Shown here piece by piece: positions 44,857-52,626 of a DNA stretch of 64,000 bases. Made by a program: the position numbers and the translations under genes. How positions within the stretch are numbered: position 1 is the stretch's first letter; each line of letters starts with the position of its first letter. The notes below the pieces were generated by a model. It was not told the origin of the DNA. It did not search any database and saw only the letters and a list, made by a program, of their open reading frames with translations. The stretch is taken from contig NZ_OY764902.1 of NCBI RefSeq assembly GCF_963668665.1, positions 62,001-126,000 on the forward strand, given 5' to 3'. Origin of the DNA: an uncultured Anaeromusa sp. GTDB taxonomy: Bacteria > Bacillota > Negativicutes > Anaeromusales > Anaeromusaceae.

Positions 44857-44900
44857 AAAACACCATTGGAGGACCTTGCGGTCAGCCAATGGTGTTTTAT
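44857..44900 (+). terminator. Terminator after nfnB
   Basis: AAAACACCATTGG (44857-44869) and CCAATGGTGTTTT (44886-44898) form a 13-bp stem. The T-run is inside the stem end, so it works in both directions. Confidence 0.85.
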
Positions 44901-44915: not shown

Positions 44916-45092
44916 GGCAGTCGCCATGTTTTTGCGACAAGATTTCCGCAAGCCTCGCCAAAATGGGCGGCAACGGAAGTTCCGCGAACTCGCTGGCGCT
45001 CAGACATACGGAACTTTTCTCCGTCGCCTTCCATTTTAGCGTCCTGAGGACCGCCTTGCTCCAAAAAAGTCGCAAAAACAACGGCTGCTGCC
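44916..45092 (+). repeat. Long palindromic dispersed repeat, copy A
   Basis: About 177 bp. Outer stem GTTTTTGCGAC (44928-44938) with GTCGCAAAAAC (45069-45079). Inner stem 44956-44977 with 45020-45041. Apical stem AGTTCCG (44978-44984) with CGGAACT (45009-45015) around a 24-nt loop (44985-45008). A side hairpin GTCC-TGA-GGAC lies at 45041-45051. It sits between nfnB and the 3' end of ilvD. Short ORFs on both strands through it mirror those in copy C and are not real genes. Confidence 0.88.
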
Positions 45093-45154
45093 GCAACTTG
45101 CTAGTGTATCTTACATGTATCCATGCGGGAATTTACATCTTCTCTCTGGTTCCT

Positions 45155-45194
45155 CTGGTTTTTCTCTGTTACTCTGTGTTCCGTTCCTGTTTCT
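45155..45194 (+). repeat. CTCTGT-rich tail downstream of copy A
   Basis: Contains TTTCTCTGTTACTCTGTGTT at 45161-45180, shared almost exactly with 50319-50346 after copy B and partly with 52417-52435 after copy C. Confidence 0.6.
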
Positions 45195-45198
45195 ACTC

Positions 45199-46851
45199 TT
45201 ATTTCAGCACTGCGCCGCTGTTGGCCGAGGTGACCATACGGGCGTAGCGGACCAGGTAGCCTTTATCCACTTTAGGAGCTGGCGGCTGCCAAGCGGCTTT
45301 ACGCTTGGCCATCTCTTCATCGCTGATAGCTACATTGAGTTTACGGCCAGGGATGTCAATTTCGATGGTGTCGCCGTCTTGGACAAAGGCCAAGGGGCCG
45401 CCATCGCGGGCTTCCGGAGAAATGTGGCCGATGCAGGCGCCGCGTGTTGCGCCGCTGAAACGGCCGTCCGTCAAGAGGGCCACCTTGAGCCCCATGCCGG
45501 CGATAACGGCGGTGGGGTTGAGCATTTCTCTCATGCCCGGGCCGCCTTTGGGGCCTTCGTAGCGGATGACAACGATGTCGCCATTCTGCACTTTTTTGGC
45601 GATAATGGCGTCGATAGCGTCTTCTTCGGAGTCAAAGCATTTGGCTGGGCCAGTGAAGTTCAGCATATCCGGCGCCACGGCGCTTTCTTTGACTACCGCA
45701 GTATCAGGCGCTAAATTTCCTTTAAGGATGGCGATGCCGCCTTTATTCATGTACGGGTCTTCTACAGTACGAATGACATCAGGCCTTAAGATAGCGGCCT
45801 GGGCTACACGTTCGCCCATGGTGCCGTCGACGGTGCGGACGGTCAAATCAATGACCTTCTTTTTCGCCAGCTCTTTAATGACGGCGTTGATGCCGCCGGC
45901 CTCATTCAGATCCTGCAGATGATGGCTCCCGGCAGGACTGAGCTTGGCAATATACGGAGTTTTAGCGCTGATTTGGTCGAAAGTTTCCGGCACCAAGGCA
46001 ACACCAGCTTCATGGGCGATAGCCAGTAAATGAAGTACGGTGTTGGAAGAGCCGCCGATGCCCATGTCGACGGCGATGGCGTTGTGGAAGGCGGCGGGCG
46101 TTAAGATATCGCGCGGTTTGATGTCGTTTGCCACCAAATCCAAGATGATTTTACCGGCTCTTTTGGCCAGCAGGCGTCGTTGGCCGTTATAGACGGCCGG
46201 GATGGTGCCGTTGCCGGGGAGCCCCATGCCAAGAACCTCGGTCAGGCAGTTCATGCTGTTGGCAGTGAAGAGGCCCGCACAGGAACCGCAGCCGGGACAG
46301 CCGGAGGCTTCGAGCTCTTCCAGCTCTTCCGCAGAAATTTTGCCAGCTTCAAAACGGCCGGCAGCCTCAAAGAGATTGCTGACGCTAATGTCCTTGCCTT
46401 GATGGCGGCCTGCCAGCATAGGTCCGCCGCTGACAACGACCGAAGGAATGTTCAGGCGGGCGGCGGCCATGAGCATGCCTGGAACAATTTTGTCACAGTT
46501 AGGGATGAGTACTAGGCCGTCAAAACCATGGGCTGTTGCTACGGATTCAATGGAGTCGGCAATGAGCTCGCGGCTAGCCAAGGGGAATTTCATGCCGTCA
46601 TGGCCCATAGCGATGCCGTCGCAGATGCCGATGGCTGGAAATTCCATGGGAGTGCCGCCAGCGGCCAAAACGCCCTGTTTAGCAGCTTCAGCAATTTCAC
46701 GCAAATGCATGTGACCGGGAATAATTTCATTAAAGGAATTGACAATACCAATGAGGGGCTTCTTCAACTCCTCAGGACCATAGCCCATAGCATAGAAGAG
46801 GGTACGATGGGCGGCACGTGTGGAACCTTTTTTTACAATATCACTGCGCAA
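45199..46851 (-). CDS. ilvD: Dihydroxy-acid dehydratase
   Basis: Iron-sulfur dehydratase of branched-chain amino-acid synthesis that makes 2-keto-isovalerate and 2-keto-3-methylvalerate (550 aa). Cluster and metal ligands lie in [12 protein letters not shown] and [11 protein letters not shown]; the PFAS-type C-terminus [14 protein letters not shown] appears as [18 protein letters not shown] chose TTG at 46851, 10 nt after AAGGAG on the minus strand, which gives the usual [10 protein letters not shown] start; longer in-frame ATGs lie before that site. It is monocistronic and divergent from valS. Confidence 0.93.
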
Positions 46852-46894
46852 GAAAAGCTCACTCCTTTTCCTCATGTGAGGTGTATTTGTTAAG

Positions 46895-46923
46895 ATCATA
46901 CACTGGAAAAATACATAATGCAA
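46895..46923 (-). promoter_or_regulatory. Candidate ilvD promoter
   Basis: Minus strand: TTGCAT (46923-46918), 17-nt spacer, TATGAT (46900-46895). The -35 box is weak. Confidence 0.4.
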
Positions 46924-46941
46924 GATTGAAAAGTCGGAACG

Positions 46942-46954
46942 TTGTTGTCAACAA
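46942..46954. promoter_or_regulatory. Palindrome between ilvD and valS
   Basis: TTGTTG-T-CAACAA, a perfect 13-bp palindrome with one central base. It lies between the divergent promoter candidates, upstream of both -35 boxes. Confidence 0.4.
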
Positions 46955-46961
46955 AGTGGTG

Positions 46962-46990
46962 TTGACAAGGATTGGGCAAGCAGGTATGAT
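46962..46990 (+). promoter_or_regulatory. valS promoter
   Basis: TTGACA (46962-46967), 17-nt spacer, TATGAT (46985-46990), directly upstream of the T-box leader. Confidence 0.85.
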
Positions 46991-46999
46991 AAAAATAAT

Positions 47000-47245
47000 T
47001 GCATAGAAAGTGAAGATGGGAAGAGTAGGCGTCGGATTGCGGTCAGAGAAAAGGCCCTTGGCTGTGAGGTCTTACGGAAACGATGGTTGAAGGTCCTCCC
47101 GGAGCTGCTGCGCTGAACCCAATAGTAGGCGCAGCCGTCGGCGGCTATGTTACAGCCGTTAGAGTCCGGGGCGACCCGGAGAAGCAAGGTGGTACCGCGA
47201 AATGAGGCTTTTTCGTCCTTACAAGAAGGATGAAAAGGCCTTTTA
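47000..47245 (+). promoter_or_regulatory. T-box riboswitch controlling valS
   Basis: tRNA-sensing leader of about 245 nt. The GAAGAGTAGGCG segment with an AG bulge and CAGAGAA fit Stem I. GGTC in GGTTGAAGGTCCTCCCGG (GTC at 47093-47095) is the likely valine specifier codon. The conserved antiterminator AAGGTGGTACCGCG is at 47186-47199. The terminator alternative is GGCTTTTTCGTCCTT (47206-47220) with AAGGATGAAAAGGCC (47226-47240) followed by TTTTATT. Uncharged tRNA-Val would favour read-through into valS. Confidence 0.9.
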
Positions 47246-47265
47246 TTATTGAAAGGGGAACAGGC

Positions 47266-49920
47266 ATGACAGAACAAAACTTATCTAGTGTGTACGATCC
47301 CAAAGGTGTTGAGGAAAAATGGTACGCAGCCTGGGAAAAAGAAGGCTGTTTTCACGCAGAAACAGATGAGCAGAAAGATGCTTTTAGTATTGTAATTCCG
47401 CCGCCGAATGTAACAGGGCAGCTGCATATGGGGCATGCTCTTGATAATACGCTGCAGGATATTTTGATTCGCTGGCATAGAATGCGCGGCGACGATACCC
47501 TGTGGATGCCCGGCACCGATCATGCAGGCATTGCTACGCAAATTAAAGTGGAAGAGATGCTGAAAAAAGAAGAAGGCAAAAGCCGTTATGATTTAGGGCG
47601 CGACGCCTTTATCGAACGTGTTTGGGAATGGAAAAAGCAGTATGGCGACCGCATTACCAGGCAGCTGCGCAGCTTGGGCGCTTCCTGCGACTGGGAGCGG
47701 GAACGCTTTACGATGGATGAAGGCTGTTCTCAGGCTGTACGGGAGGTCTTTGTTTCTCTATACGAAAAAGGGCTGATTTATCAGGGACACCGCATTACCA
47801 ATTGGTGTGTGCGCTGTCATACGGCGTTGAGCGATATTGAAGTAGAACATGAAGAAAAAGAAGGCCATTTGTACCATCTGCGCTATGAAGTGGAAGGCGA
47901 AGCCGGCCGTTACGTGATTATTGCCACGACGCGTCCTGAAACCATGCTGGGCGATACGGCAGTAGCGGTGCATCCGGACGATGCGCGTTATCAGGATTTA
48001 ATTGGCAAGACTTTGCTTCTGCCTGTGGTGAATCGTCGCATTCCGCTTTTGGCGGATGATTATGTCGATCCTTCTTTTGGTACGGGGGCTGTGAAAATTA
48101 CGCCGGCTCATGATCCTAACGATTTTGAGATGGGGCAGCGTCACAATTTAGAGCAGGTGGTGGTCATTGGCCCGGAAGGCAATATGACCGATGAGGCTGG
48201 CAAATACGCCGGACAGGATCGCTATGAGTGCCGCAAAGCGCTCCTGGCGGACTTGGAAGCGATGGGAGTTTTGGTTAAGGTAGAAAGCCATCCTCATGCG
48301 GTGGGGCATTGCCAGCGCTGCGGCACCGTTGTGGAGCCGCTGGTGTCTAAACAGTGGTTTGTTAAAATGGAACCTCTGGCGAAACCAGCGATGGAAGTGG
48401 TGCGGAACGGACAGGTGCAATTTGTGCCGGAGCGGTTCAGTCGTACGTATTTGAACTGGCTGGAAAATATCCGCGACTGGTGTATTTCTCGGCAGATTTG
48501 GTGGGGGCATCGCATTCCCGCCTGGTACTGCGAAAGCTGCGGTAAAACGATTGTTTCCCGCGAGGATCTGACGGTTTGCCCGCATTGCGGCGGCGCTGTG
48601 GAGCAGGACTCGGACGTGCTGGATACTTGGTTCAGCTCGGCTCTTTGGCCTTTTTCTACGATGGGCTGGCCGGAAAATACGGCCGAATTGCGGCAGTTTT
48701 ATCCAACAAGCGTGCTGGTAACAGGCTATGACATCATATTCTTCTGGGTAGCGCGGATGATTATGATGGGCCTGGAATTCAAACAGGAAATTCCTTTCCG
48801 TCATGTCTTCATTCATGGTTTGGTGCGTGACAGTCAGGGGAGGAAGATGTCCAAGTCTCTGGGGAATGGCATTGACCCTTTGGAAGTTGTGGAAAAATAC
48901 GGCGCCGATACCTTGCGCTTCATGCTGATTACAGGCAACACGCCTGGCAATGATATGCGTTTTTATTGGGAGCGCGTGGAAGCCAGCCGTAACTTCGCCA
49001 ATAAAATTTGGAATGCTTCCCGCTTTGTGCTGATGAACCTGGAAGGTTTTAGCGGCCAGGCGCCGCAAGCAGAACAGCTGACCTTGGCGGATCGCTGGAT
49101 TCTCAGCCGCTATGACAATGTGACTAAAGCTGTGACCGAGAATCTGGGCCGCTTCGAATTGGGCGAGGCCGCTCGGTTGGTCTATGAGTTTCTGTGGGGC
49201 GAATACTGCGACTGGTACATTGAAATGGCCAAACCGCGTTTGTACAACAAAGAGGAAGCGGCGCAGCGCGCGGTGGCTCAGTATGTGCTGTGGGAGGTTT
49301 TGGAAGGAACCATGCGCCTGTTGCATCCTTTCATGCCTTTTATTACCGAAGAGATCTGGCAGCATCTGCCGCATGAAGGCAGCAGCATCATGAAAGCCTC
49401 GTGGCCTTCTTCGCAGGCGGGACGGAGTGACGCTGCGGCAGAAGCACAGATGAACCTGATTATGGAAGCTGTTAAAGGCATTCGCAATATGCGGGCGGAA
49501 ATGAATGTTCCCCCGGGACGGCGCAGTGAAGTGATTTTGCAGGCCGGCAGCGAAGAAGTGCGCAGCGTGCTGCAGCAAAACGAAGGTTATTTCCGTCAAT
49601 TGGCGGCGGCAGAGCCTGTGACTTTGCCGGTAGTGGGGGCGGAAAAACCGGAAAACGCTATGGCGACAGTTGTAGCTGGGCTGGAAGTATATTTGCCGCT
49701 TAAGGGCTTGATTGACGTAGAAAAAGAAACGACCCGCCTTTCTAAAGAACGCGAGTCTCTGACCAAGGAACTGGCACGGATTACTGGCAAGCTCGGCAAT
49801 GAAGGCTTTATGGCTAAAGCGCCGGCGGCGGTTGTTGAAAAAGAACGCGCTAAAGCCCAAGAATGCGAGGATAAATTAGGCGCAATCCGCGAGCGCATGG
49901 ACTATTTAGCAACGTTGTAA
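47266..49920 (+). CDS. valS: Valyl-tRNA synthetase
   Basis: Charges tRNA-Val (884 aa, family ~880). Class I signatures: HMGHALDN (the HIGH motif) near 56 and KMSKSLGNG (KMSKS) near 530. The editing domain includes [18 protein letters not shown]. The C-terminal coiled coil ([20 protein letters not shown]) contacts tRNA. The ATG at 47266 follows AAAGGGG; an upstream in-frame ATG at 47230 lies inside the T-box terminator. Expression is set by the T-box. Confidence 0.97.
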
Positions 49921-49939
49921 TCTACGGAGTTCTACAATG

Positions 49940-49977
49940 CGCCGCTGCCCCCAATGGTGGCAGCGGCGTTAGTTTTG
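49940..49977 (+). terminator. Terminator after valS
   Basis: CGCCGCTGCC (49940-49949) pairs perfectly with GGCAGCGGCG (49959-49968), followed by TTAGTTTT. Confidence 0.82.
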
Positions 49978-50038
49978 CTATACCAGATTTATAAGTTTTG
50001 AGAGGCTGAAACAAGAGGAGTGGCAAGAGTTTGTGGAC

Positions 50039-50068
50039 AACGAACTGCGAAACACACGAAAAACGCGA
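50039..50068 (+). repeat. Short dispersed repeat, copy 2 (GCGAAACACACGAAA type)
   Basis: Near-identical to 34203-34232. Here it lies about 35 nt before palindromic repeat copy B, so it may belong to the same composite element. Confidence 0.6.
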
Positions 50069-50104
50069 AGAAATTTATCAGGGAATAGGAGCTTTTCTAT
50101 AAAC

Positions 50105-50280
50105 GGCGGCATAACTGTATTTGAGACAAGATTTCCGCGCGACTCGCAAAAGTAGGAGGCGACGGCAGTTCCGCGAACTCGCTAGCGCTCAGACATACGG
50201 AATTTTTCTCCGCCGCCTCCTTTTTTTGCGTCCTGCGGACCGTCTTGCTCCCAAAAGTCTCAAATATAGTTACGGCCGCC
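50105..50280 (+). repeat. Long palindromic dispersed repeat, copy B
   Basis: About 176 bp. Outer stem TATTTGAGAC (50118-50127) with GTCTCAAATA (50257-50266), with GGCGGC..GGCCGCC beyond. Inner stem 50145-50165 with 50210-50230. Apical stem AGTTCCG (50167-50173) with CGGAATT (50198-50204) around the same 24-nt loop (one base differs). Side hairpin GTCC-TGC-GGAC at 50230-50240. Outer-stem bases differ from copies A and C, but both strands change together. Confidence 0.88.
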
Positions 50281-50311
50281 GCAGGCTCATTCGTCCCCTT
50301 GCATTACTTCG

Positions 50312-50358
50312 CTGGCCTTTCTCTGTTACTCAGTTACTCTGTGTTCCCTGTTTCTTTA
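50312..50358 (+). repeat. CTCTGT-rich tail downstream of copy B
   Basis: TTTCTCTGTTACTC then TTACTCTGTGTTCC and CTGTTTCTT; an internal TTACTC is duplicated relative to copy A. Confidence 0.6.
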
Positions 50359-50386
50359 ACTCGGCTTTTTGAAAGGAGGTTTTTCG

Positions 50387-51682
50387 ATGACTTATCAAGA
50401 GTCGATTGCATACTTAGAAGGTTTGTCGCGTTTTGGCATTCGCCTGGGCTTGGAGCGGATGCAAGAGCTGGTAATTCGCTTGGGGCATCCAGAAAGAAAA
50501 TATCCGACCATTCATATAACCGGCACGAACGGCAAAGGTTCTACGACGGCTTGCTTAGCGGCTATTTTGCAAGAAGCCGGGTTTCGTACCGGTATGTATA
50601 CGTCGCCGCATTTGGAGCGTTATACAGAGCGCATGCGCATTGACGGCTTGGAAGTGGAAGAGGCTGTGTTTGCCGACGCTATTGAGCAAACCGCTGCGGC
50701 GGCGCAAGAGATGGAGCGGGACGGCTTGGAGCATCCGACACAGTTTGAGGTGCTGACGGCAGCCGCATTTGTCATGTTTGCGGCCATGAAAGTGGACTAT
50801 GCAGTAATTGAAGTGGGTTTGGGCGGGAGTCTGGATTCCACGAATGTCATTGAAAGTCGTGTGGCGGTAATTACGAATGTGACGCTGGAGCATGAGGATC
50901 GCTGCGGCTCTACGATACGAGAAATTGCTGAACACAAGGCGGGCATTATCAAGAAAAACTCTCGCGTGCTGACGGCGGCGCAAGGGGAGGCGCTCGAGGT
51001 TATCCGGCGGCGGGCAGCTGATTGCGGCGCGGTAGTGCAAGTGCTCGGCGAAGAATGGCAGGCTCAGATGCAGTCGGTGTCTTTAACCGGAATTGCCTGG
51101 ATGCTGCAGCAGCCTAACGGATCTAGTTGGCCTTTGCAGGCGCGCCTTGTGGGAGAACATCAAGTCTACAATGCTTCGTTGGCGGTGATGGCGGCGTTAA
51201 CAGTAAGGGAAACCGCAGTGAATCAGGAAGCTGTTGCCCGCGGTTTGGCAAAGGCTTGCTGGCCGGGGCGCTTTGAAGTGTTGCGCACCCAACCGCCGTT
51301 GGTGATTGACGGAGCGCATAATCCGGCTGGCGCTGCGGTGCTGCGGCGCACGCTGGATCAAGTGTTTCCAGGGCGAGAGGTCCTGTTTTTGCTGGGGATT
51401 TTAAAGGATAAGGATATTGAAGGTATTACCGGCCTTTTGGTGCGGGAGCAGGACCGGGTTATTGCAGTGAGGCCGCTTTCGGAACGCGCCGCAGAAGCGG
51501 GTGATTTAGCAAGCCATTTTCCGCCGCACCAAGTGGAAGCGGTACCAGACTGGGAAGAAGGTGTAAACCGATTGCTGGAATTAGCGGAGCAAGAGCCTCG
51601 GAAAGTGGCTTGTGTAGCCGGTTCGTTATATTTATTAGGCGCAGTGAGGCCTCTTTTACTGCAAAAACTGCAAAACAAATAA
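50387..51682 (+). CDS. folC: Bifunctional folylpolyglutamate synthase/dihydrofolate synthase
   Basis: Adds glutamates to folate (431 aa). P-loop GTNGKGSTTA (near 44-53), GLGGSLDSTNVI, ITNVTLEHEDRCGSTIREIAEHKAGI and FLLGILKDKD are conserved. The ATG at 50387 follows AAAGGAGG; an ATG at 50369 precedes that site. Together with folD and fhs at 40-42.5 kb it serves one-carbon metabolism. It is preceded by repeat copy B, whose tail ends about 30 nt before the ribosome binding site. Confidence 0.95.
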   Translation: MTYQESIAYLEGLSRFGIRLGLERMQELVIRLGHPERKYPTIHITGTNGKGSTTACLAAILQEAGFRTGMYTSPHLERYTERMRIDGLEVEEAVFADAIEQTAAAAQEMERDGLEHPTQFEVLTAAAFVMFAAMKVDYAVIEVGLGGSLDSTNVIESRVAVITNVTLEHEDRCGSTIREIAEHKAGIIKKNSRVLTAAQGEALEVIRRRAADCGAVVQVLGEEWQAQMQSVSLTGIAWMLQQPNGSSWPLQARLVGEHQVYNASLAVMAALTVRETAVNQEAVARGLAKACWPGRFEVLRTQPPLVIDGAHNPAGAAVLRRTLDQVFPGREVLFLLGILKDKDIEGITGLLVREQDRVIAVRPLSERAAEAGDLASHFPPHQVEAVPDWEEGVNRLLELAEQEPRKVACVAGSLYLLGAVRPLLLQKLQNK

Positions 51683-51784
51683 TTACAAACCGAGAAAGAA
51701 TACAAAATATTTATACTATGCATGTTTATCTCTTTGTTTAAATTTGGTAAAGTTGTCTACGGAAAGTGACAAGGAGGAATGGTC

Positions 51785-52165
51785 ATGCGAATTGAAGAGT
51801 TTGCTCAGCGTTTTTTTCAAAACGCCTTGCCGGAAGGTATGTGGCGTTATCATGGAACCAAGGGGATGGTGGAACCCTTAACGGAGGCGCCAATGCCGGG
51901 ATCCAGTCCTGTCATTACTCTTGAAATTCTGCGGGGGCAGGCTTCTAATCAATTGCAGGCGCGCTCTTGGTTTCACCAGCAGCAGCTTTGGCAGGATCAT
52001 GCGTCGTTTAGGTGCGAGGCGCATCCGCCGACCATTCGCGAAGCCTTGGGTGAGTTGTCGCACCAGGTCAGCCAGCAGTTGCCGGAAGATGTTTGGATGC
52101 GGCGGGAGTTCAAGTTTGACGTACTGGAATTACAGCAGGCCTTTGCGCCGTGGCATAAAATATAG
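51785..52165 (+). CDS. Unknown conserved-looking small protein
   Basis: A 126-residue soluble protein with no recognised motif. It has several Trp and Gln-rich stretches (WFHQQQLWQDH) and a predicted helical end (REFKFDVLELQQAFAPWHKI). The start follows AAGGAGG, 7 nt away; the in-frame ATG at 51779 is too close. A terminator follows. Codon use is like its neighbours. Function unknown. Confidence 0.65.
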   Translation: MRIEEFAQRFFQNALPEGMWRYHGTKGMVEPLTEAPMPGSSPVITLEILRGQASNQLQARSWFHQQQLWQDHASFRCEAHPPTIREALGELSHQVSQQLPEDVWMRREFKFDVLELQQAFAPWHKI

Positions 52166-52169
52166 AGAG

Positions 52170-52203
52170 AAAAAGCATTCCTGCATAAGGGATGCTTTTT
52201 TTG
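52170..52203 (+). terminator. Terminator after the unknown small gene
   Basis: AAAAGCATTCC (52171-52181) with GGGATGCTTTT (52189-52199), one G:U, then TTT. Confidence 0.82.
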
Positions 52204-52205
52204 TA

Positions 52206-52384
52206 CGCAACCGCCATTGTTTTGCGACAAGATTTCCGCAAGCCTCGCTAAAATGGGCGGCGACGACAGTTCCGCGAACTCGCTGGCGCTCAGACATACG
52301 GAACTGTTCTCCGTCGTCTTCCATTTTTGCGTCCTGCGGACCGGCTTGCTCCCAAAAAGTCGCAAAAACAACGGCGGCTGCCGC
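52206..52384 (+). repeat. Long palindromic dispersed repeat, copy C
   Basis: About 179 bp, closest to copy A. Outer stem GTTTTGCGAC (52219-52228) with GTCGCAAAAAC (52359-52369). Apical stem CAGTTCCG (52267-52274) with CGGAACTG (52299-52306) around the shared 24-nt loop (52275-52298). Side hairpin GTCC-TGC-GGAC at 52331-52341. It lies directly after a terminator, in the same orientation as copies A and B. Confidence 0.88.
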
Positions 52385-52626
52385 TGTTTACTAGCGTTTC
52401 CTCTGCTAACTCTGGCCTTTTCTCTGTTTCTGTGTAAATTTCCTAAATCCGTCGTGCCCTCCCTCTACTCCCTTTACTCCTGTTAAAAATCAGGTGCCTT
52501 TTTTTCTCCTGCGTACCCTCTATAGATGTCGGTTGCCATGCCATCCATGGCGCAACCGACCCTAGCCGCATCCAGCGCCGTCGCCGGTTCTCCTGTTCAA
52601 TCCAACTCCGTCGTGCTCGCTGTCTC
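52385..52626 (+). other. Gene-free stretch with tail repeat and a second hairpin
   Basis: Contains a CTCTGGCCTTTTCTCTG tail (52411-52427) like those after copies A and B. It also holds a separate hairpin at 52528-52560, where GTCGGTTG pairs with CAACCGAC and CCATG with CATGG. No ORF with a ribosome binding site. Confidence 0.5.

Follow-up and report, generated by a model that had tools for sequence, protein, structure and literature searches.

A branched palindromic repeat behind intrinsic terminators in Anaeromusa, present, absent or exchanged among close relatives

The window, a stretch of 64,000 nt from an uncultured Anaeromusa sp. (contig NZ_OY764902.1, positions 62,001 to 126,000), carries three copies of a palindrome, here called A, B and C, each in a gap between genes. 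Copy A lies between a gene for a GltA-like oxidoreductase and ilvD, copy B between valS and a Mur-ligase-family (folC-like) gene, and copy C between a 128-aa open reading frame without a Pfam match and an O-antigen-ligase-family gene (Table 1). The sequences, positions and intergenic placement given in a preliminary description of this DNA are accurate, and an alignment of the three copies with their flanks bears out the shared architecture and orientation that it reported, together with a 24-nt loop that differs at a single base and outer-stem arms that change together between copy B and copies A and C. A search for the apical pattern, allowing up to three mismatches, returns exactly these three sites in the window and none in 100 shuffles. 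Copy A extends as a palindrome outward from its outer stem to about 44916-45092. The intrinsic terminator before it, missed by our terminator detector because of its 16-nt loop, is conserved in two congeners, G001 and G002.

Table 1. Features at the three sites, in window coordinates. R1 is a covariance model built from copies in this genome (G000) alone; G101 is a second genome of the same species.
Feature	Position	Strand	Basis	Position of R1 match
Intrinsic terminator upstream of copy A, hairpin AACACCATTGG/CCAATGGTGTT and T-run	44859..44898	+	read from sequence	
Copy A, outer stem to outer stem, TTTTGCGAC allele, apical type I	44928..45079	+	R1, 165.6 bits	G000:C2:106928-107079
valS intrinsic terminator, upstream of copy B	49940..49976	+	hairpin score 36 and sequence	
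Site B stretch differing from G101	49977..50319	+	BLAST blocks and sequences	
5' module GCTATACCAGATTTATAAG, left end of the composite, directly 3' of the terminator	49977..49995	+	common to many copies in this genome	
Copy B, outer stem to outer stem, TATTTGAGAC allele, apical type I	50117..50267	+	R1, 168 bits	G000:C2:112117-112267
Intrinsic terminator upstream of copy C	52174..52202	+	hairpin score 24 and sequence	
Site C stretch replaced in G101 by a different copy	52207..52624	+	BLAST blocks and sequences	
Copy C, outer stem to outer stem, TTTTGCGAC allele, apical type I	52218..52369	+	R1, 163.6 bits	G000:C2:114218-114369

We show that the repeat is a branched palindrome, about 150 nt long, whose loops are fixed and whose stems covary. 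In the 24 complete copies first fetched from this genome, 96.4% of stem cells pair, and changes on both sides of a pair occur in 63 cells, against 20.6 in shuffles (none of 500 as high). Covariation, already visible among the three window copies, thus persists when more copies are aligned: it is found in 33 of 40 stem pairs, and two loop motifs stay fixed. One of the five covariation measures, that of further pair types, was reached by 42 of 500 shuffles. Selection on base pairing, as proposed from the three copies, is supported by this pattern, but template-switch correction of palindromes could give double changes without selection.

Described at first as a three-copy family, which holds within the window, the repeat is far more abundant in the genome as a whole, where copy A has 27 BLAST matches and R1 has 57, 35 of them strong (at least 146 bits). 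G001 holds 30 R1 matches. All 30 copies examined for context lie outside the called neighbouring genes, as expected of extragenic palindromes in many copies. R2, a broader model that includes sequences of several families, matches 62 of 380 Negativicutes genomes, with strong matches in nine families, most of which themselves contributed sequences to the model; R1 alone reached seven families at E ≤ 4.5e-10. Weak in-class R2 matches (about 1e-4 to 1e-12) were taken as listed rather than one by one. Across 398 genomes of the phylum, R2 gave 15 matches at E ≤ 1e-3, and outside Negativicutes its matches were weak and partly incomplete, the best being 2.5e-10 in G405. An exact-pattern search returned 19 stretches, all with Negativicutes titles; that pattern demands ATCCT and so excludes the subfamily of this genome, which has GTCCT. 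In the searches made, strong matches are confined to Negativicutes. A composite from Anaerospora had no match among phages and plasmids, window positions 50000-50400 had none among plasmids, and one exact pattern had none in viral contigs. Literature searches on Negativicutes intergenic repeats or REPs, repeats at terminators and Sporomusa palindromes gave no title or abstract opening describing the repeat, and a search with the loop string found nothing.

Within this genus the copies occupy a characteristic position. The upstream gene is co-oriented with 28 of 30 copies in this genome, the count in tandem gaps being 17 to 2, and a terminator-like hairpin precedes 24 of 30; these gene contexts, like those below for G001, G002 and other families, rest on longest-ORF heuristics. 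The terminator detector was controlled in the test on G001 and G002, in which a hairpin was found in 19 of 26 rows (25 copies, since L245 and L086 denote a single copy), compared with 2 of 26 on the opposite side and 1 of 78 shuffles. The leading strand carries 29 of 30 copies in this genome, and in G001 there are two sign changes among 23 copies (the 23 of its 30 matches that were listed), one copy lying where the skew is unresolved. Since genes favour the leading strand, the biases in orientation, terminator and strand are not independent of one another. Nor do they hold in other families, where tandem gaps split 8 to 8 and the G-rich strand carries 16 of 44 copies. In G006, a split chosen after looking gave a Fisher p of 5e-5 and a runs test was reached by 7.6% of shuffles, and we draw nothing from it. 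Copies in this genome share and exchange modules in a BOX-like composition, forming mosaics, and composites that bear the 5' module begin 5-13 nt behind terminator stems. The strong copies here are single, and alternating inverted pairs occur at loci of Anaerospora, G030 and G015.

Copies are present, absent or exchanged between species and within one species while their flanks stay unchanged. The comparison covered 20 of 24 mapped loci, themselves 24 of the 35 strong copies; one locus, L191, ends at a contig end. Of these 20 orthologous sites, 18 in G001 and 17 in G002 yielded no palindrome, meaning that no loop motif lay within three substitutions in the fetched stretch; the flanks on both sides align at 17 and 14 of these empty sites, respectively. 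At six sites compared across their junctions, which were judged by eye, 231-513 nt in this genome stand against 1-4 nt in the relative. Four of the six have no module remnants in the relative, and no defined 3' end, terminal inverted repeat or target duplication was seen at the junctions. The palindrome of about 180 bp first taken as the unit is real but usually just the middle of the longer stretch that differs. That stretch, in this genus, is a composite, mostly 231-513 nt long, which starts a few bases 3' of an intrinsic terminator, points the same way as the gene upstream and lies on the leading strand.

The same-species genome G101 extends the comparison. Neither copy B nor L066 is present in G101, G001 or G002, and at site B G101 has 56 nt in place of the differing stretch. 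At copy C and at L049, the two same-species genomes carry different copies at one terminator; the replacement at site C bears a 5' module and an apical part of type II between flanks that are 99% identical. Eighteen of the 20 mapped sites could be placed in G101. Eleven have the loop, two of them within another copy; in four (L061, L066, L045 and L051) both flanks align but no loop is present; two sites, L057 and L063, have been rearranged, and L046 is cut. Deletion in relatives accounts for part of the cases, namely L045 and L051 in G101, L050 (which lacks exactly the palindrome) and L044 in G002, and site A, where remnants are left in G001 and G002.

Could the copies simply be old, without recent mobility and repeatedly deleted in relatives? 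The clear deletion of L045, the site A remnants and the loss of just the palindrome at L050 are what such a history would leave. The absence of copy B and L066 from all three relatives and the different copies found behind the same terminator in two conspecific genomes make it very unlikely as a general account. A structured RNA, whose sense transcript would fold into a regulator or protein-binding RNA and whose copies would spread by duplication, was among the readings first offered. Strong covariation, conserved loops and, in this genus, a single orientation with respect to the gene upstream agree with it, as does an excess of G-U over A-C mismatches in this genome (25 vs 13, rising to 44 vs 13 when a pair with G-U in the majority of copies is counted), so we retain it as a rival. 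This lean fits a single-stranded sense form, whether RNA or DNA. Across families, however, the excess disappears (GT 46, AC 54), against GT 17 and AC 0 in a comparison set of 13 tRNAs, for which ARAGORN may not bracket A-C at all. No described Rfam family matches the copies, most copies sit 3' of a terminator, orientation is inconsistent in other families and copies turn over inside one species. RNA as the main reading was set back by the Rfam result and the missing G-U excess across families, and we regard it as improbable.

The composite fits best a non-autonomous palindromic element or a REP-like system, the other two readings of the preliminary description: strain and species differences, many copies, modular build and, in one relative, IS110 elements adjoining at a fixed distance favour both, but we found no mobilising enzyme. 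A Y1 (HUH) transposase of the REP/RAYT type, moving the palindrome in trans as single-stranded DNA, would suit the strand bias in this genus, and Y1_Tnp matches occur in 13 of 14 element-bearing genomes, many in frames of 246-318 aa, about the size of a RAYT. Yet the assembly of this genome has no Y1_Tnp, though copies B and L066 look recent, a Y1 gene of G101 is flanked by palindromes of another sequence, and none of 23 examined Y1 loci (of 84 matches; none from G307, G309 or G312) holds an R2 match at E ≤ 1. Common as Y1 genes are in the relatives, we set RAYT aside as the mobiliser on the evidence of these 23 loci, and this route seems to us quite unlikely. Less probable still is a group II intron reverse transcriptase that targets terminators and acts in trans. 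Its appeal is a common landing rule: six introns of one kind in this genome, putatively of class C, begin 3-11 nt behind terminator stems, close to the distance of the composites, and group IIC introns insert at terminators according to passages of PMC4424553. Against it, G001 has its 30 R1 matches with two weaker RVT_1 matches, neither of which reaches the strength of a group II intron; RVT_1 gave no match in G015 or G021; and two composites from this genome resemble neither intron locus L036 nor L037, sharing with L042 just a flanking repeat. We also considered IS110 as a parent. At least six of eight identical IS110 copies in G006 adjoin a core at a fixed distance (among the 35 of 45 cores listed), but in three copies compared the IS ends are 98.8-99.8% identical and the adjoining cores 76-90%, and IS110 is absent from 6 of 14 element-bearing genomes, so it was set aside.

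Based on these observations, we suggest that the repeat is very probably mobile palindromic DNA, and probably a non-autonomous element of the REP/BIME or BOX sort. The differences between sites would then be insertions. Movement would take place at the replication fork, with the unit as a folded single strand of DNA, and we propose this coupling to the fork tentatively; a trans-acting factor would recognise either the fixed loops or the composite's left end, TATACCAGAATTTATAAG, and the terminator hairpin would mark the landing site. Slippage at short repeats such as GACTC could later remove palindromes and leave module mosaics, and copies may be selfish or neutral, tolerated because they are placed behind terminators. 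A more speculative and rather unlikely form of this idea is a new kind of gene-less element. Its composites, folded as single strands, would be written at replication forks into the leading strand, a fixed few bases behind intrinsic terminators, by a factor that is neither a Y1 transposase nor a group II intron reverse transcriptase. If true, genes of this genus would carry an exchangeable cassette slot behind their terminators.

One branched palindrome thus recurs across several families of one class and differs within one species. Empty, filled and swapped sites make the movement of gene-less palindromic repeats, a long-standing question, testable in one genus, and the repeat is a case in which strong covariation alone does not settle that a sequence is RNA.

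Several known systems resemble it in part. Like MITEs, it is short, non-coding, multi-copy and strain-variable, but no parent insertion sequence was identified, and no target duplication or terminal inverted repeat of the whole composite was seen. Group IIC introns are likewise placed just behind intrinsic terminators in sense orientation, as parts of PMC4424553 describe; the window copies differ in having no ribozyme domain by Rfam, no reverse transcriptase frame and no fixed 3' end. The pneumococcal BOX, RUP and SPRITE repeats are small, modular and interspersed, with strong folds, clustering and nesting, and SPRITEs are enriched at gene 3' ends in the sections consulted of PMC3049150 and PMC10969869. 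Terminal inverted repeats and target duplications characterise BOX and RUP, and pneumococcal repeats are almost absent outside close relatives (both from excerpts of PMC3049150), whereas neither hallmark was seen here and this repeat is strongly matched in nine families. With REPs and BIMEs it shares multi-copy folded extragenic palindromes, mosaics and perhaps, from what some relatives show, alternating inverted pairs. A REP is a short simple hairpin, unlike the branched palindrome of about 150 nt described here, and REP/RAYT systems differ further in their linked Y1 gene, a linkage not seen here at the 23 loci examined. The IS110 copies that adjoin the repeat at a fixed distance in G006 add to the resemblance, as REPs are IS110 targets in the portion of PMC1525189 available to us.

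The palindromic repeat is a real, multi-family element without description in the sources searched, and very probably a mobile palindromic DNA repeat. Reading and aligning copies A, B and C bore out the positions and appearance given in the preliminary description, whose "three-copy family" holds for the window; BLAST and a covariance model place far more copies in the genome as a whole. Copy A as BLAST query returned 27 matches in its own genome, 24 of them complete, and the model built from these (R1) gave at least 57 matches there (35 at ≥146 bits and a diverged group of 22 at 32-84 bits), with 150 of 1779 first-look candidates scored, so that weak copies were possibly missed.

R1, made from own copies only, detected the repeat in 12 of 40 genomes, its own counted; seven families passed E≤4.5e-10, and an eighth reached 2.2e-4. 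With up to eight matches scored per genome, a broader model (R2) matched 62 of 380 Negativicutes genomes, and at E<1e-15 it matched 22 genomes in nine families, most of which contributed sequences to it. Named pattern matches include Anaerospora hongkongensis, Propionispora sp. 2/2-37 and Negativicutes MAGs; across 398 genomes of the phylum, R2 gave no strong match outside Negativicutes. No Rfam family matched the repeat in any of the copies or loci scanned.

Anatomy of the repeat and locations of associated features (own genome, G000; G015, G030 and G006, relatives; G101, same species)
Feature	Sequence or location	Remarks
Outer stem	GTATTTGAGAC/GTCTCAAATAC	majority of 24 complete own copies
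Outer stem, second allele	TTTTGCGAC-like	copies A, C, L011; L019 with a mismatch
Outward extension of outer stem	GGCGGC/GCCGCC	many copies
Inner stem		long, sequence variable; between outer and apical stem
Apical stem	AGTTCCG...CGGAACT; AGTTTC...GAAACT	two types; inside inner stem
Loop	AACTCGCT-CGCTCARACA	above apical stem
Short hairpin	TCCTGCGGA	follows on 3' side
Alternating inverted pairs of cores (palindromes), close together	L156 6895-7698; L144 1416-1762; L118 12078-12649; L091 1305-1929	Anaerospora, G030, G015; outer ends in Anaerospora with hairpins such as CTCCTTTTGTCATTGCCACAAAAGGAG
Tandem diverged copies	L114 8530-9378 (G000:C1 near 771 kb); L116 5546-6067	adjoin 5S rRNA genes close to contig ends
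Left palindrome half kept	L034, L035 (own copies)	then other palindrome, TCCCCCTGG...GGGGGA
T-box leader, RF00230 (Rfam match)	window 47004-47223	immediately 5' of valS
Second repeat module, GACGTCGGTTGCCATGCC.TCCATGGCGCAACCGACC	window ~52528-52600; flanks of L013, L016, L018, L029	recurrent in composite 3' parts
CTCTGTTACTCTGTG-like module	same places	also recurrent
Group II intron, six copies	L036-L041, own genome outside window	RT frame 462-498 aa; all start within a short distance (3-11 nt) of an intrinsic terminator stem, 3' of it
RAYT-size Y1_Tnp gene	L255 1223-2292 (G101)	flanked by inverted repeats of GGTTCAGGGGGACGGTTCTCCTGA, palindromes unlike the element
GGTTCAGGGGGACGGTTCTCCTGA motif	L042	on both sides of intron
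IS110 copies, 421 aa	G006:C6, e.g. L128, L134, L140	863-865 nt 5' of core, same orientation

Own copies show stem changes on both sides at 14 of 40 pairs, and copies from across families at 33 of 40, while loops were unchanged. In the cross-family alignment, which was fitted to the covariance model and so leans to structure, 89.6% of stem cells pair, against 29-53% after sliding partners; four of five covariation measures exceeded all 500 shuffles, the fifth, further pair types, being matched by 42.

The upstream gene is co-oriented with the element in 28 of 30 own copies (17 to 2 in tandem gaps), and a terminator-like hairpin (score ≥24) precedes 24 of the 30. In the congeners G001 and G002 such hairpins precede the element in 19 of 26 rows, which cover 25 copies; the controls gave 2 of 26 on the other flank and 1 of 78 after shuffling. 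Thirteen copies whose 5' module was recognised start 5-13 nt behind the terminator stem, and the six group II introns of the same genome start 3-11 nt behind theirs. The G-rich strand of the flanks holds 29 of 30 own copies; the 23 listed copies in G001 (of 30 matches) change sign twice round the chromosome, as few as in 2 of 100,000 shuffles, one change falling between 633 and 654 kb, coinciding with the skew switch. These facts are not independent, because genes and terminators also favour the leading strand. Other families lack such bias (tandem gaps 8 to 8; G-rich strand 16 of 44), and the landing rule therefore belongs to the genus or to its composite.

Turnover was followed by mapping pieces of 24 upstream genes into the two congeners and taking 20 orthologous gaps from each; the palindrome was not found at 18 (G001) and 17 (G002). 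At six sites the differing stretch spans 231-513 nt in the own genome and 1-4 nt in the relative, with its start at the terminator T-run in five; part of a module is retained in the relative at L044 and L049. The differing unit is thus a composite, often a 5' module starting TATACCAGAATTTATAAG, followed by the palindrome and 3' modules. Within the species, G101 shares copy A, lacks copy B and the copy at L066 (flanks 96.6-98.5% identical), has internal deletions at L045 and L051, and carries a different copy behind the same terminator at L049 and the copy C site. Insertion, deletion and re-insertion at the same places would be the simplest account, insertion being judged from genome comparison.

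RNA pairing is expected to favour G-U over A-C mismatches. Counts were 46 to 54 across families and 25 to 13 in own copies (44 to 13 if one pair, present as G-U in the majority of copies, is counted); 13 tRNAs gave 17 to 0, a weak control since ARAGORN chose the brackets. The excess in own copies favours a single strand in the sense direction, whether DNA or RNA. Given the site behind terminators and the within-species turnover, we read the fold, from sequence, as a feature of the DNA, perhaps of a single strand.

Among candidate mobilisers, Y1_Tnp was not found in the own assembly; it matched in 13 of 14 element-bearing genomes, and none of the 23 Y1 loci inspected carried the element. In G001, despite at least 30 element matches, RVT_1 did not match at group II strength, and IS110 was not found in 6 of the 14 genomes. 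G006 has eight identical IS110 copies, six of them at a distance of 863-865 nt from one of the listed cores and in the same orientation. They probably landed in pre-existing repeats, a candidate target, because in three copies compared the IS ends are far more alike (98.8-99.8%) than the adjoining cores (76-90%); REPs are known IS110 targets, according to an excerpt of PMC1525189.

Unlike REP/RAYT systems, the repeat showed no linked transposase at the loci tested; it works in like manner to REP/BIME and BOX repeats.
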